A stretch of 64,000 nucleotides of DNA from an uncultured Saprospiraceae bacterium (GTDB lineage: Bacteria > Bacteroidota > Bacteroidia > Chitinophagales > Saprospiraceae): positions 1 through 64,000 of the forward strand of contig CAKZSH010000132.1 of the NCBI GenBank assembly GCA_937918905.1, given 5' to 3'. The notes beneath the pieces are model-generated. The model did no database searches. It was not told the origin of the DNA and worked only from the letters and a program-made list of their open reading frames with translations. Positions 4,518-59,943 of this stretch are shown here, piece after piece (the first letter of the stretch is position 1; the number at the start of each line of letters is the position of its first letter). The translations under genes and the position numbers were made by a program.

Positions 4518-4642
4518 GGTGAACGGTAGACGGTTGACGGTCGCTGCGCTTGACGGTTCGAATAATTTTGATTTTAAGATTTTCGAACCGTCAAGCGTAG
4601 CGTCCGTCAACCGTCAAGCGAAGCGACCGTCTACCGTTTTTT
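4518..4642. repeat. long inverted repeat made of CCGTCAA(GCGNAGCG) words
   Basis: GAACGGTAGACGGTTGACGGTCGCTGCGCTTGACGGTTCGAA against TTCGAACCGTCAAGCGTAGCG...CCGTCTACCGTT; right arm has an extra repeat unit. Confidence 0.85.
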
Positions 4643-6556: not shown

Positions 6557-6683
6557 GATTCAAAATTATGGATTTTTCTAGCCACATATTATGCAGATTT
6601 TATGATTTTCCTCTAATGCCTTTTTTCGAAAAATCATGAAAATCTGCGTAATCTGCGGCTAAAAAAATCCATAATTTTGAATC
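6557..6683. repeat. long inverted repeat immediately upstream of fhs
   Basis: GATTCAAAATTATGGATTTTTCTAGCC...GCAGATTTTATGATTTT against AAAATCATGAAAATCTGC...GGCTAAAAAAATCCATAATTTTGAATC. Confidence 0.85.
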
Positions 6684-8540: not shown

Positions 8541-8738
8541 TTGCAGATAATTGGATATGAGATGTTTAATAATAGTAACTATCGTTCTCATGTTGTTTTG
8601 ATAGGTGATAATCATGGTTTTGTATTGCTAGCTAATGGTCATCAATCAAAAGAGAGATCAATTGCAGCTTTAAAAGGGCAAGCAATTGTTTTAAATAAAA
8701 TTTCTGAATTATTGAATATTTTGCCCGCTACCCTCTAA
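8541..8738 (+). CDS. small hypothetical protein (TTG start or internal ATG)
   Basis: ORF only; no family recognised. Confidence 0.3.
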   Translation: MQIIGYEMFNNSNYRSHVVLIGDNHGFVLLANGHQSKERSIAALKGQAIVLNKISELLNILPATL

Positions 8739-8748
8739 AAGTAAAAAA

Positions 8749-8825
8749 ATTCGACTCTCTCAAATTGTTTAGAGATTCATAAACCAATATCGTTTGTGAT
8801 ATAGTTTTACGGAGAGAGCCGAATT
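8749..8825. repeat. degenerate copy of the GTAAATCCGACTCTCTC inverted-repeat family
   Basis: ATTCGACTCTCTCAAA ... GGAGAGAGCCGAAT. Confidence 0.65.
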
Positions 8826-8840
8826 AAAATATTGCTTTAA

Positions 8841-14752: not shown

Positions 14753-14825
14753 GGGATAATAAAGAACTGGTTAGATTTTATGGAGAGGAAATCTTTATTA
14801 TAATAGTTTAATAGTGTTTTTACTT

Positions 14826-14965
14826 TTGCCATGCACGAGTCAAGGTCTGGCTTAAAATGTCAAGCCTTAATTTATGAGTATATCGTTAGAAGCTTTGATT
14901 TGTAAGAAAATCAAGATAAGTCAAAGCCTGACTTTTTAAGTCAGACCTTGACTCGTGTATGGCAA
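14826..14965. repeat. inverted-repeat element, CACGAGTCAAGG family, copy 2
   Basis: TTGCCATGCACGAGTCAAGGTCTG... against ...CAGACCTTGACTCGTGTATGGCAA followed by ATGCTGAATAA as in copy 1. Confidence 0.85.
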
Positions 14966-14975
14966 ATGCTGAATA

Positions 14976-15764: not shown

Positions 15765-16287
15765 GCTATTATTTTTTAAAGGTTAAAAAAAAGAGTTCTA
15801 ATTTTTTCCAACAATATAAATACAAATAAAAAAAGTAATCAGATTACATTATTTTAAAAACGGTAATCGAACAACTTTTGTTACCTTTGCAAATAAATAA
15901 AAATTGAAGATTTGTTTCCTCGAAGAACTCATGTTTTAATATTGTTAGGTATTTGATTCACTTATGGTTTTTTAAGATAATCATTCAAAGTTGAATGATG
16001 TTTTTTGTTATAAAAACAATGTGGAGATGAAGAAAATAAATTTTCATTTTTCATTTGAAAAAAAATGTTGATTTATTGTTATAGTAAAGTTATAATTTTT
16101 TTCTGAAAATATTACAAATTTTATAACATTGTTTTTCCTAAAGAAAAAAATATTCATTATCGATTTTGAAACTCAACAACTCTAAAATTATTTTTTGGTC
16201 AATTTTATAACACTATTTTTACACGTACTCAATCCAAAGACAACATCTTATCCTAAATAACTGATAATCAATAATTTAAACATTCCA

Positions 16288-20040: not shown

Positions 20041-20119
20041 TAATTTTGAATTTTGAATGATGAATTTTGAATTCACGTTTTCGACCCATTCAAAATTCAT
20101 CATTCAAAATTCAAAATTA
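20041..20119. repeat. perfect 32-bp-arm hairpin of GAATTTTGAAT words
   Basis: TAATTTTGAATTTTGAATGATGAATTTTGAAT (20041-20072) against its exact reverse complement (20088-20119). Confidence 0.95.
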
Positions 20120-25581: not shown

Positions 25582-25690
25582 AATGGTTAAATAGTTTCGC
25601 TTCGCTAGTTGCTCAATTGTTATCGAACAATTTTAATTCACCAATTTGAGATCGCTCAAAAATATGTGTTTGAGAACTTGTTACTATTAA

Positions 25691-25791
25691 CCGTCAGGTG
25701 TAAATCCGACTCTCTCAATCGAATAAATTTGAACCCAAATTTAAAGGAATTGATTTTCGATCAAGAGAGCCGAATTTACTTTCGAAGGCTA
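25691..25791. repeat. copy of the GTAAATCCGACTCTCTC inverted-repeat family
   Basis: CCGTCAGGTGTAAATCCGACTCTCTCAATCGA ... TCGATCAAGAGAGCCGAATTTACTTTCGAAGGCTAAGG. Confidence 0.8.
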
Positions 25792-25802
25792 AGGAAAAAT
25801 TA

Positions 25803-30038: not shown

Positions 30039-30169
30039 AAAATTGGGTTAAATGTGTTGATGTGTATGAGTGTATAGGTGCATATGTTTCGATATTATTT
30101 AGAATCAAAAGTATTCGACAACCCGTAGACCTATACACTCATACACATCAACACATTTAACCCAATTTT
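30039..30169. repeat. 41-bp perfect inverted repeat upstream of groES
   Basis: AAAATTGGGTTAAATGTGTTGATGTGTATGAGTGTATAGGT (30039-30079) and exact reverse complement (30129-30169). Confidence 0.95.
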
Positions 30170-32574: not shown

Positions 32575-32782
32575 ATTGGTTAGTTAATTCGTTAATTAAT
32601 AAAAATTCTTGAGACTCGAATTCGGATTCACGTTCACAATTTGGGGGTGTTTATTTAACGGTGTCTATTAATTTTCTTCTTAGCCGTTGGATGTAAATCC
32701 GACGGCTAAGAAGAACAAGCTCAAAGACACACATTCATGAACACTCCCCCTAATTTACTAATCAACTACTTAACCAATCACC
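32575..32782. repeat. composite nested inverted repeat; core is a collapsed copy of the CCGTCGGATGTAAATCC family
   Basis: outer GATTGGTTAGTTAATT... against ...ACTACTTAACCAATC; middle GGGGGTGTTTATTTAACGGTGTCT against AGACACACATTCATGAACACTCCCCC; inner TTCTTCTTAGCCGTTGGATGTAAATCCGACGGCTAAGAAGAA. Confidence 0.8.
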
Positions 32783-36119: not shown

Positions 36120-37670
36120 ATGAAAAGAAGAACATTTCTTAAAAATACGACAATATTTTCCTTGCCAGCCATGATGGGTGGCTTTAATGTAGCCGCAATG
36201 CCTTCTGCCACCATGGAAACTTTAATCAATGGTGATAGTGATAAAGTGTTGGTCTTGATTGACTTGAATGGAGGTAACGATGGTCTACACACCTTTCTTC
36301 CTTTGGATAATTATGATAATTTGGCGAATGCCCGTCCTAATTTTATCCTACCAGCGGATTCCCTTATAGGAATGACGGATACCATAGGATTGCATCCTTC
36401 AATGACTGGAATAAAAAGCCTTTATGATAACGCTAACCTTACTTTAATCCAAGGTGTCGGTTATCCTAATCAAAACCGTTCTCATTTCCGTTCTGCGGAT
36501 ATTTGGAATACGGGAACACCTGCCAATGTATACAAATCGTCTGGTTGGGTAGGTAGATATTTAGATGATTCTTTTCCAGGTTATCCTACTGATTACCCGA
36601 GTACAGATTGTCCTGATCCATTTGCTGTTACTATGGGTCGGTCTATTTCAGGTACTTGCCAAGGTGCGGAATCTAACTTTAGTATGGCCATCATAAATAC
36701 AAATGATATCGGAGGGTTGAATGCTGGAATTGAAGCCCCAATCACTAACGATTGTTATGGCGAAGAACTAGATTTTATGATAGAGTCCTTTAAAAAATCA
36801 AATGCATACGCTGATCGAATTATTGCAGCAGCAGATATAGGATCGTCCAATAGTTCTCTTTATCCAAATACGACTTTGGCTAATCAAATGAGTACGGTTG
36901 CCAAATTAATTTCAGGTGGATTACAAACCAAAATTTATGTTTTAAAATTAGGTGGCTTTGATACTCACTCCTCTCAAAATGAAGCAAATGATACTACTGC
37001 TGGTAATCATGCTTCTTTATTGAAAAAATTATCTGATGCTATATTTGCATTCCAAGAAGACATCAAAGCATTAGGCTTGCAAGAGCGAGTGATAGGAATG
37101 ACTTTCTCAGAGTTTGGAAGAAAAATCATTTCTAATGCTTCTCAAGGAACTGATCATGGTTCAGCAGGACCAATGATGGTTTTTGGTTCATGTATCAATG
37201 CAGGAGTTATTGGTGATAATGCTTTTATAGGTGAAACTGGTGATGCAGATGAAGGAGTTGCCATGCAGTATGATTTCAAATGGGTTTATGGCTCTATCCT
37301 TATGGATTGGTTTGGTGTGGAGGAAAGTAAGGTGATGACCCTATTGAGTGACGATTTTCAATACCTTCCGATAATACAAGATTGCAATTTTGTGAGCACA
37401 AAAGAAATTGTCCAAATATTAGATTTTAATGCTTTCCCAAATCCTTTCGATCAAACTTTTACTTTAAGTTTTTCTCTTTTGGAAAAAGAAAATGTTCGAA
37501 TTGATTTATTTGATGTAGTAGGAAAGGTAGTGCAACAAATTTCTAACAAGACATTAGCATCTGGTGAACACACTATGACTATTGAAGGTCATTCACTTCC
37601 AAGTGGTGTTTATTTTACTAGAATTCAAGCAGGTAATGGAGTTAAAACATTACGTGTAGTTAAGAAATAA
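36120..37670 (+). CDS. DUF1501 family protein with T9SS sorting domain
   Basis: Tat-like start MKRRTFLKNT, LVLIDLNGGNDGLHTFLP, FDTHSSQ, FSEFGRKI, TDHGSAGPM; C-terminal FNAFPNPFDQTF. Confidence 0.93.
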   Translation: MKRRTFLKNTTIFSLPAMMGGFNVAAMPSATMETLINGDSDKVLVLIDLNGGNDGLHTFLPLDNYDNLANARPNFILPADSLIGMTDTIGLHPSMTGIKSLYDNANLTLIQGVGYPNQNRSHFRSADIWNTGTPANVYKSSGWVGRYLDDSFPGYPTDYPSTDCPDPFAVTMGRSISGTCQGAESNFSMAIINTNDIGGLNAGIEAPITNDCYGEELDFMIESFKKSNAYADRIIAAADIGSSNSSLYPNTTLANQMSTVAKLISGGLQTKIYVLKLGGFDTHSSQNEANDTTAGNHASLLKKLSDAIFAFQEDIKALGLQERVIGMTFSEFGRKIISNASQGTDHGSAGPMMVFGSCINAGVIGDNAFIGETGDADEGVAMQYDFKWVYGSILMDWFGVEESKVMTLLSDDFQYLPIIQDCNFVSTKEIVQILDFNAFPNPFDQTFTLSFSLLEKENVRIDLFDVVGKVVQQISNKTLASGEHTMTIEGHSLPSGVYFTRIQAGNGVKTLRVVKK

Positions 37671-37765
37671 TATTGAATAAAGAATTTTGAATTTTGAATA
37701 AATCGAAAACCTTGTATTCATAAGTTTTTGGAACATTCAACATTCAAAATTCTTCATTCAATATT
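37669..37765. repeat. GAATTTTGAAT-word hairpin overlapping the DUF1501 stop codon
   Basis: AATATTGAATAAAGAATTTTGAATTTTGAAT against ATTCAACATTCAAAATTCTTCATTCAATATT (29 of 31 complementary). Confidence 0.9.
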
Positions 37766-37854
37766 AATCACCATGCCTTCATTTGGAAAATCCGAACTTA
37801 TTTACAACTTTTGCAATCTCTATTTCGAGAAAACAATAATTGAGCTTATTAAGA

Positions 37855-40751: not shown

Positions 40752-41375
40752 ATGAAAAACTCAATTTTACTCCTACTATTTTCCATTTCTATCTTTTCCA
40801 ACAATGTATTTGCACAAAATTCGCAACAAATAAAATCTGCAAGTATTCATGAAATAATAACTCATATTCAGTCCGAACTCCTTGAAAAAGGATATGATAA
40901 TCAGAAGGCTTTTATCCTCAGAGACAGCCTTGGTAAAAAAATGGTTAAACAATTTCAACTGGATTATCAAGAAGTGATGACTAGAGTACAAGGAGGATGT
41001 TGTAGTCCTGAGACGGTCAAAAAATATGAAGAAAAATTAGGTAAACTTCAAAATCAGATTCTGTTTTTTGAAAAAGAAACACAGAGAATCTTAGAGGAAA
41101 GTCAATTGGAAAGAAGTCAAAATATTTTGCTTTTTACAAAAAATAAAATCCAAGAATTTGGAGCAAAAAATAAGGTATTAATAATGTCCACAGATGTTAT
41201 TCTATTTCAAAATGATGAAAAAAGCGACATCACTTCTACCCTCCTCAAACACATCCATCAATCAAAAGAATACAATGATTGGATTAAGTCCTTTAATGAC
41301 ACAGAACAGTTAATTCAACAAATTCAAGATTTGAATTTCGAGATTCAACCAATGTTTATAATTAAAAATGAATAA
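40752..41375 (+). CDS. secreted hypothetical protein (OmpH-like coiled coil?)
   Basis: signal peptide MKNSILLLLFSISIFSNNVFAQ; charged helical body. Confidence 0.65.
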   Translation: MKNSILLLLFSISIFSNNVFAQNSQQIKSASIHEIITHIQSELLEKGYDNQKAFILRDSLGKKMVKQFQLDYQEVMTRVQGGCCSPETVKKYEEKLGKLQNQILFFEKETQRILEESQLERSQNILLFTKNKIQEFGAKNKVLIMSTDVILFQNDEKSDITSTLLKHIHQSKEYNDWIKSFNDTEQLIQQIQDLNFEIQPMFIIKNE

Positions 41376-41439
41376 TGGATAATTTTCGTAGTACGTGATT
41401 TACGCCATTCGTAATTATTCATTATTCATTTTTAATTAT
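41358..41439. repeat. hairpin of AATAATTAAAAATG words; left arm extends into the CDS
   Basis: ATAATTAAAAATGAATAATGGATAATT against AATTATTCATTATTCATTTTTAATTAT. Confidence 0.9.
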
Positions 41440-55009: not shown

Positions 55010-55032
55010 TTCTGTTTTTGAAGATTATTGTT

Positions 55033-55225
55033 GAATTAGGGAAAAAGGGAAGACGGATTTACGATTTGAGAAGTTTTGTCGAAATTCGGTGATTCTAACT
55101 TTCACGAGGGTGTTCAAAAAAATGTATCAATAGTATTTTGCTCTTTGACCGACGGAGGGGGTGTTTTTACCAATACTCGGTAAAACTTCTCAAATCGTAA
55201 ATCCATCTTCCCTTTTTCCCTACTT
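55033..55225. repeat. 45-bp-arm inverted repeat in convergent gap
   Basis: GAATTAGGGAAAAAGGGAAGACGGATTTACGATTTGAGAAGTTTT (55033-55077) against AAAACTTCTCAAATCGTAAATCCATCTTCCCTTTTTCCCTACTTC (55181-55225). Confidence 0.92.
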
Positions 55226-55236
55226 CAAAATCAGCT

Positions 55237-56276: not shown

Positions 56277-56371
56277 TGATTAAGATTATGGATGCAAGAT
56301 TATGGATTTCGAATATTTTAGAAACTCAAAACTTTTCGAAATCTTAAATCTTGAATCTTGAATCTTAATTA
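56277..56371. repeat. GATTATGGATT-word hairpin
   Basis: GATTAAGATTATGGATGCAAGATTATGGATTTCGAA against TTCGAAATCTTAAATCTTGAATCTTGAATCTTAAT. Confidence 0.85.
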
Positions 56372-58322: not shown

Positions 58323-58354
58323 TTGGTACATATCAATCAATAAATTTACATTTG
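58323..58354 (+). promoter_or_regulatory. Bacteroidota-type promoter of the SRP RNA
   Basis: TTG (58323-58325), 21-nt spacer, TACATTTG (58347-58354) matching TTG/TAnnTTTG. Confidence 0.75.
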
Positions 58355-58452
58355 CGGCTGGTGAGAGCCATTCGACCAGCTCCTGTCGAACTCCCCCAGG
58401 GTGGAAACGCAGCAAGGGTAGATGGTTGAGCGGTGCGGAGTGGTTTCTCACC
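58355..58452 (+). ncRNA. ffs: small bacterial SRP RNA (4.5S)
   Basis: GGTGAGA...TCTCACC closing stem, conserved GGTGGAAACGCAGCAAGGGTAG domain IV core, T-run after 58454. Confidence 0.93.
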
Positions 58453-58530
58453 TCTTTTTTTTAATCTTCACATACTTATTTATACAGTTCTACTTTCATT
58501 CACATTTCTTAATTTTTAAAATTTATTTGT

Positions 58531-59193
58531 ATGAAATTTTTTGTTGATACAGCCAACTTAGACGAGATCAAAGAAGCATTTGATTTAGGTATACTTGATG
58601 GTGTAACTACTAATCCTTCATTGATGGCAAAGGAAGGAATCGTTGGAACTGATAATGTAATGAAGCATTACAAAGCAATTTGTGATATTGTGGATGGCGA
58701 TGTAAGTGCTGAAGTAATTTCTACTGATTTTGAAGGAATTATTGCTGAGGGTCAAAACTTAGCTCAAATAGCTCCAAATATTGTTGTAAAAGTTCCAATG
58801 ATTAAAGACGGTATCAAGGCAATCAGTTGGTTTACTGCAAACGGAATTAAAACTAATTGTACTTTGGTTTTCTCTGCTGGACAAGCAATTCTTGCAGCTA
58901 AAGCTGGAGCAACATACCTTTCACCTTTCATCGGAAGGATAGATGATATTTCATGGGATGGGATTGAATTGATTCATCAAATTGCTGAAATTTATGCCAT
59001 TCAAGGTTTCGATACTGAAATTTTAGCAGCATCAATAAGAAGTCCAAAACACATTGTAGATGCAGCAGAGTCCGGTGCAGATATTGTGACTTGTCCATTA
59101 AAAGCAATTTTAGGATTACTAAAACATCCTTTGACTGATATTGGATTAGCGAAGTTTTTAGCAGATCATAAAAAAGCAAATGAGAATGCTTAA
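58531..59193 (+). CDS. transaldolase / fructose-6-phosphate aldolase-like
   Basis: MKFFVDTANLDEIKEAFDLGILDGVTTNPSLMAKEG, VKVPMIKDGIKAI, SPFIGRIDDI. Confidence 0.95.
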   Translation: MKFFVDTANLDEIKEAFDLGILDGVTTNPSLMAKEGIVGTDNVMKHYKAICDIVDGDVSAEVISTDFEGIIAEGQNLAQIAPNIVVKVPMIKDGIKAISWFTANGIKTNCTLVFSAGQAILAAKAGATYLSPFIGRIDDISWDGIELIHQIAEIYAIQGFDTEILAASIRSPKHIVDAAESGADIVTCPLKAILGLLKHPLTDIGLAKFLADHKKANENA

Positions 59194-59221: not shown

Positions 59222-59262
59222 ACATCCCGAATTCTCTGATTGAGAATTCGGGATTGTTTTTT
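59222..59262 (+). terminator. transaldolase terminator
   Basis: ATCCCGAATTCTCTGATTGAGAATTCGGGATTGTTTTTT. Confidence 0.85.
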
Positions 59263-59287: not shown

Positions 59288-59492
59288 TGAGCGTCTTTTA
59301 ATAAAATGTGTCTATGATATTTTGATACTTAGCCGTCGGATGTAAATCCAACTCTCTCAGTCGAAATACATGTATTTCTAAAAATGGATAAAAAAGTATT
59401 TATTTTCAAAATATTTTCGACTGAGAGAGTCGGATTTACATCCGACGGATAAGTGTCAAAATATCACGGACACATTTTATTAAAGACTCCCC
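59288..59492. repeat. largest, most complete copy of the CCGTCGGATGTAAATCCGACTCTCTC inverted-repeat family
   Basis: GAGCGTCTTTTAATAAAATGTGTCTATGATATTTTGATACTTAGCCGTCGGATGTAAATCCAACTCTCTCAGTCGAAA ... TTTCGACTGAGAGAGTCGGATTTACATCCGACGGATAAGTGTCAAAATATCACGGACACATTTTATTAAAGACTCCCC. Confidence 0.95.
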
Positions 59493-59523: not shown

Positions 59524-59943
59524 TTAAACAGCGAAGATCTGATCAAAATCCGCAAATGATTTAAACTCAATTGCATTCCCACTTGGATCCATAAAAAACA
59601 TGGTCGCCTGTTCTCCTACTTCTCCTTCGAAACGCACATATGGTTCAATGATAAATTCAATGCCATGTGCTTTTAATTTTTCTGCAAGCGTATCAAATTC
59701 ATTACGCTCCAAGATGGCTCCAAAATGTTTGATTGGAACTTGTTTTCCATCCACAGGATTGGCAGCAGGTTCGACAATGGGTTCATCTGTTAAATGTGCG
59801 GACATCTGATTTCCCCAAAAATTAAAATCTATCCATCGTTCAGAGGTTCGACCTACTTCACAGCCAAGAAGGCCTTCGTAGAAGTCACGAGTTTTTTGTA
59901 AATCTGTTACTGGAAAAGCTAAATGAAATGGTTGTGCAGCCAT
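59524..59943 (-). CDS. VOC/glyoxalase family protein
   Basis: HLAFPVTDLQKTRDFYEGLLGCEVGRTSERWIDFNFWGNQM, FMDPSGNAIEFKSF. Confidence 0.92.
   Translation of the reverse strand: MAAQPFHLAFPVTDLQKTRDFYEGLLGCEVGRTSERWIDFNFWGNQMSAHLTDEPIVEPAANPVDGKQVPIKHFGAILERNEFDTLAEKLKAHGIEFIIEPYVRFEGEVGEQATMFFMDPSGNAIEFKSFADFDQIFAV

Follow-up and report, generated by a model that had tools for sequence, protein, structure and literature searches.

The hairpin lies at positions 59289–59492 of the window (the whole 64,000-nt stretch of Saprospiraceae DNA that was analyzed, part of contig C132), between a gene of the transaldolase/F6P-aldolase type (58531–59193, + strand) and a gene of the glyoxalase type (59524–59943, − strand) that both converge on it (Table 1). 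A Bacteroidales small SRP RNA (Rfam RF04183) is also present in this region, at 58352–58457. Folded as one RNA strand, the two arms pair across about 90% of the element, and the fold of 59288–59492 has a computed energy of −112.7 kcal/mol versus −34.7 ± 3.9 kcal/mol for shuffled sequences (z = −19.8). An earlier reading, made from the sequence only, had described arms complementary almost end to end around an AT-rich loop, which agrees with the ungapped 70-nt arms found here (59297–59366 and 59415–59484), 93% complementary and separated by a 48-nt AT-rich spacer. The outer-arm pattern G4-5/TTTA/GTGTC noticed in that reading is the terminal inverted repeat. It had also stated that the window contains no transposase; indeed, neither a Y1 nor a Mutator transposase occurs on the whole contig of the window.

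Table 1. Features of the hairpin at 59289–59492 and other copies of the family in the window
Feature	Positions	Strand	Support
Full-length copy, older (B) subfamily	59289–59492	.	model R1, E = 1.1e-30
Left terminal inverted repeat, GAGCGTCTTTTAATAAAATGTGTC	59289–59312	+	sequence; IS256-type end pattern
Right terminal inverted repeat, GGGGAGTCTTTAATAAAATGTGTC	59469–59492	−	sequence
Inner palindromic motif, left arm, CCGTCGGATGTAAATCCAAC	59333–59352	+	motif search
Inner palindromic motif, right arm, CCGTCGGATGTAAATCCGAC	59429–59448	−	motif search
AT-rich loop	59367–59414	.	inverted-repeat search
Intrinsic terminator of ordinary type for the gene upstream, outside the element	59224–59254	+	
Copy of the recent (A) subfamily, clipped by the contig start	1–150	−	99% to A consensus
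Short form with both A ends and the palindrome, without the CTCTCTC...GAGAGAG middle; flanks match at 6/8 bases	32643–32748	+	
Decayed full copy	25681–25798	+	model, E = 1.2e-18
Weak relic, middle part only	8736–8840	+	model, E = 0.0011
Truncated relic of B type (GAGGGTGTTCAAAAAAATGTATC...GACCGACGG), nested in another long inverted repeat, within its loop	55106–55155	+	

With at most three mismatches, the inner motif has six matches in the window, for 0.00 expected. It had been said to recur at 1–155, 32681–32712, and 25691–25791, and in a decayed form at 8749–8825, and all these places do hold copies or relics of the element; the relic at 55106–55155 had been overlooked.

In the genome (5.55 Mb in 372 contigs, 93% complete), the motif CGGATNTANATCCGACTCTCT is matched 85 times with at most two mismatches, and a control with the reversed pattern is not matched at all. 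Matches to the motif and to the end sequences merge into about 70 places, 56 of them with the core and a few, defined by the end sequence alone, that may be false. The elements are about 105 or 200 bp long and without coding capacity. In the recent subfamily A, 12 full-length copies are 95%–99% identical over 198 bp and thus result from a recent amplification; their two ends, A1 (GGGGGTGTTTATTTAACGGTGTC) and A2 (GGGAGTGTTCATGAATGTGTGTC), are unlike each other. Short forms (∼105 bp) have both the palindrome and the ends, and no CTCTCTC-loop-GAGAGAG middle. The older subfamily B, which includes the 59289 copy, has ends like GAGACTGTTCAAAAAAGTGTGTC.

Of the approximately 70 places, 23 have a contig end no more than 300 bp away, where 4% would be expected, and the family partly explains why this assembly is fragmented. 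Arms and loops can be scrambled when long palindromes are assembled. Flipping of the loop was considered for two copies in seemingly opposite arrangements (L035 and L060) and set aside, since each of them sits at a contig end and their flanks match; the apparent flip more likely stems from how the palindrome was assembled. Another copy, L065 (C267:67–263), and that at 59289–59492 are 97% alike, with the left flank in common and the right flank different, which suggests either recombination between copies or a mixture of strains in the assembly. The conserved loop motif TTGATTATCAATNNTTTA, which looks like a double IHF-type site, is found in the loops of many copies; it was dropped as a defining feature of the family since it occurs also singly in intergenic DNA (at 16262, 17515, and 62761 of the window).

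Direct 8-bp target duplications (at least 7 of 8 bases identical) flank 12 of the 24 copies having both ends (for example, TATCTTAT, TTTTGTTC, TTTCGAAA, AAACTAAG, and TCAAAATT); when the flanks were permuted, 20,000 trials gave 0.88 such copies on average and never more than 6. By inspection and comparison of the flanks, no convincing duplication is seen at the 59289 copy, nor at half of the end-complete copies. Paralogous empty sites are also present. The target repeat TTTGCGAACTCTGCTTCTATTTTTC occurs uninterrupted about 27 times in the genome and is split by one copy (L037), with CTCTGCT on both sides. The high-copy repeat containing TTTGCGAACTCTGCTTCTATTTTTC is found at C92:15712 and C132:70243 of this genome (G000) and at about 25 more places. 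The elements are short, non-coding, and dispersed in many copies, with terminal inverted repeats and the direct target duplications that had been named beforehand as evidence for a MITE.

The ends relate the family to IS256. Allowing at most two mismatches, the B end CTGTTCAAAAAAGTGTGTCA is present in 24 of the 149 genomes from this bacterial family (near zero for the control). At four of the loci examined (L130, L136, L135, and L129), a nearly identical end, GAGACTGTTCAATAAAGTGTGTC, opens a true IS256 element, and a PF00872 transposase starts immediately inward of it (E = 2e-94 for L130 and 1e-100 for L136). The best of the older copies share 22 of 23 bases with the L130 end. In the L130 element, the second end is GGGATAGTTCATTAAAGTGTGTC and the flanks read as an 8-bp duplication, CTATATTT, on both sides; the L136 protein matches the solved structure of the ISCth4 transposase (6XG8) with E = 2e-117. 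In two genomes of the same genus, the IS256 elements (L171 and L172) have related common ends, GGGACT...AAAGTGTGTCA. Target duplications of 8 bp are described for ISCth4 (PMC7780238) and ISPaes3 (PMC3281130), so that the hairpin family is like the IS256 family (Transposase_mut, PF00872; ISCth4, PDB 6XG8) both in end sequence, by comparison with the elements of relatives, and in target duplication. On the other hand, it has no transposase gene, a length of ∼200 bp versus ∼1.5 kb, and arms of about 70–90 nt versus IS256 ends of about 25–40 bp.

No autonomous element with these ends is found in this genome at its present state of assembly. The single complete IS256 copy (L087) ends differently, which means that the partner transposase would be missing, lost, or unassembled; apart from L087, only a fragment was matched. 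With neither a transposase of its own nor one with matching ends found in the genome, the family is called an IS256-type MITE and not an IS256 element. The A2 end is absent from the 296 relatives searched; for subfamily A, with A-type ends absent there, the link to IS256 goes through the shared GTGTC pattern, the 8-bp duplications, and the interior in common with B. In genome G118, a hairpin made of CGCAGAG/CTCTGCG words (L132 and L151) is capped by the IS256-type end that the B copies share and is apparently another MITE of the same kind with a different interior. In genome G150, CTGTTCAAAAAAGTGTGTCA (at most two mismatches) occurs at 24 places, and for many of these a contig starts about 115 bp away, the pattern expected of an abundant element breaking the assembly.

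The arms had been said to stay complementary while drifting. In an alignment of 16 copies, this holds for the outer arm but not for the inner stem: double-sided changes are present in four outer-arm pairs and in one near the loop, whereas the inner stem (columns 51–78 with 153–178) has none, and its variation is single-sided and often breaks pairs. In the fold of the alignment, the covariation term amounts to −0.33 of −54.7 kcal/mol. The symmetry of the outer arm is ascribed to arm-to-arm copying. In subfamily A, the subterminal block is TATTAATTTTC next to A1 or TTTGAGCTTGTTC next to A2 in 56 of 61 arms; five arms break this rule. In four of the elements concerned (L034, L059, L109, and L110), the same subterminal block is present on both arms, between unlike ends, which indicates that one arm was probably copied onto its partner; the matching blocks may also come from recombination between elements. 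Template switching is a known route for copying between arms and yields compensatory changes without selection (PMC8794818). The family would constitute a clean case where block-wise copying of arms, seen in single elements, makes paired changes that may pass for RNA covariation.

None of the 34 copies examined lies inside an ORF. Among the 31 copies with both neighbors visible, 21 lie between convergent genes; among adjacent gene pairs of the window, 10 of 50 are convergent (Fisher p = 4e-5). This background comes from one window with simple ORF calling, so that the size of the bias is rough. Of 33 copies, 11 lie between the arms of another long inverted repeat. Random intergenic points of the window do so in 16% of cases (p about 0.01), and the excess is suggestive only.

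We consider it highly probable that the family is a miniature inverted-repeat (foldback) element of the IS256/Mutator type. Its ends (A1 and A2 in recent copies, GAGACTGTTCAAAAAAGTGTGTC in older ones) would be bound in trans by an IS256-family transposase, which would insert the non-coding copies with 8-bp target duplications; the copies that survive would be those outside genes, mostly between convergent genes; and the long arms would be kept complementary through the copying of one arm onto the other (by template switching or gene conversion in the palindrome), not through selection on an RNA. Such a non-autonomous, MITE-like nature was among the proposals of the sequence-only reading, and the IS256-type ends, the 8-bp duplications, the paralogous empty sites, and the recent amplification speak for it. 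It is a genuine element that moved recently, yet its type is already known; its arms are unusually long and mutually corrected.

The same reading had also proposed a structured-RNA family. A structured RNA or a 3′-end processing signal maintained by selection on base pairing would account for the very stable fold, the positions between convergent genes, and the double-sided changes in the four outer-arm pairs, and yet it is very improbable: the inner stem contains no double-sided change and single changes that break pairs are common there, the covariation term is the one given above, the element has no Rfam match, and it carries footprints of mobility. In addition, the block copying seen in the four elements gives paired changes without selection, by the mechanism of PMC8794818. 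A covariance-model search of related genomes, which the sequence-only reading had asked for, found no relative in 59 other genomes of the bacterial family under strict filters. A suspected candidate for a structured RNA is in this way resolved as mobile DNA. A more limited role, in which the MITE is co-opted as a two-way 3′-end hairpin (a terminator or RNA stabilizer) between convergent genes, is unlikely, if less so. The convergent-gene bias, which includes recent copies, would fit it, but the loss of insertions in genes and promoters yields the same bias; besides, the left-hand neighbor of the 59289 copy is followed by a terminator of its own, and no T-run comes after the stem. It is similarly doubtful that the element prefers the centers of other intergenic inverted repeats together with convergent gaps, so that nested foldback DNA would accumulate at 3′ ends as shared two-way 3′-end structure.

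Mobilization by a RAYT (Y1 tyrosine transposase), as in REP/REPIN-like families, is another origin suggested at the outset and has hardly any probability in our view. The inner motif is indeed a short palindrome of REP size and the genome has four Y1 transposase genes, but none of these carries the motif: the inverted repeats around them are other palindromes or lack it. Three of the genes (L028, L030, and L031) each have their own palindrome at the flanks (GTCTGTAAGACC, CACCACCTTGAAAAGGTGG, and CTGCGGGTTTTAACCCGCAG). Target duplications and long terminal inverted repeats also suit a DDE transposase and not a Y1 enzyme. The GTAG- and CGTC-tagged REP sequences (PMC3733652) are likewise short intergenic palindromes of high copy number; here, however, CGTC is within the paired stem and not an unpaired tag at one end of it, RAYT association is absent, and the motif belongs to a bigger element that has 8-bp target duplications.

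The element has parallels elsewhere. The IS982-derived MITE of Cardinium, also in the Bacteroidota, is likewise a short element without genes that derives from an insertion sequence and has spread within one lineage (PMC9769881), although its parent, IS982, is still present, whereas the IS256-type parent is not found in the present assembly. Judging from its title, the Mutator/foldback element Tm1 of root-knot nematodes (PMC3169594), which is eukaryotic, belongs to this transposase superfamily too. The core 24-mer is not matched exactly anywhere in a collection of 85,462 species (from which this genome may be absent). In relatives of the same genus, three weak DNA matches were rejected, none being a family member; L090 and L091 are matches within a protein-coding stretch. 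The family looks confined to this species, with B ends common to IS256 elements across the bacterial family.

Other long intergenic inverted repeats occur in the window at 4524–4620, 6557–6683, 14825–14966, 20041–20119, 30039–30169, 37668–37766, 41358–41439, 55031–55228, and 56279–56369. Their arms consist of repeated short words (TTGAATTTTGAAT, GTGTATAGGTGTAT, and GATTTGAGAAGTTTTGTCGA), and several have TCGAA near the loop.
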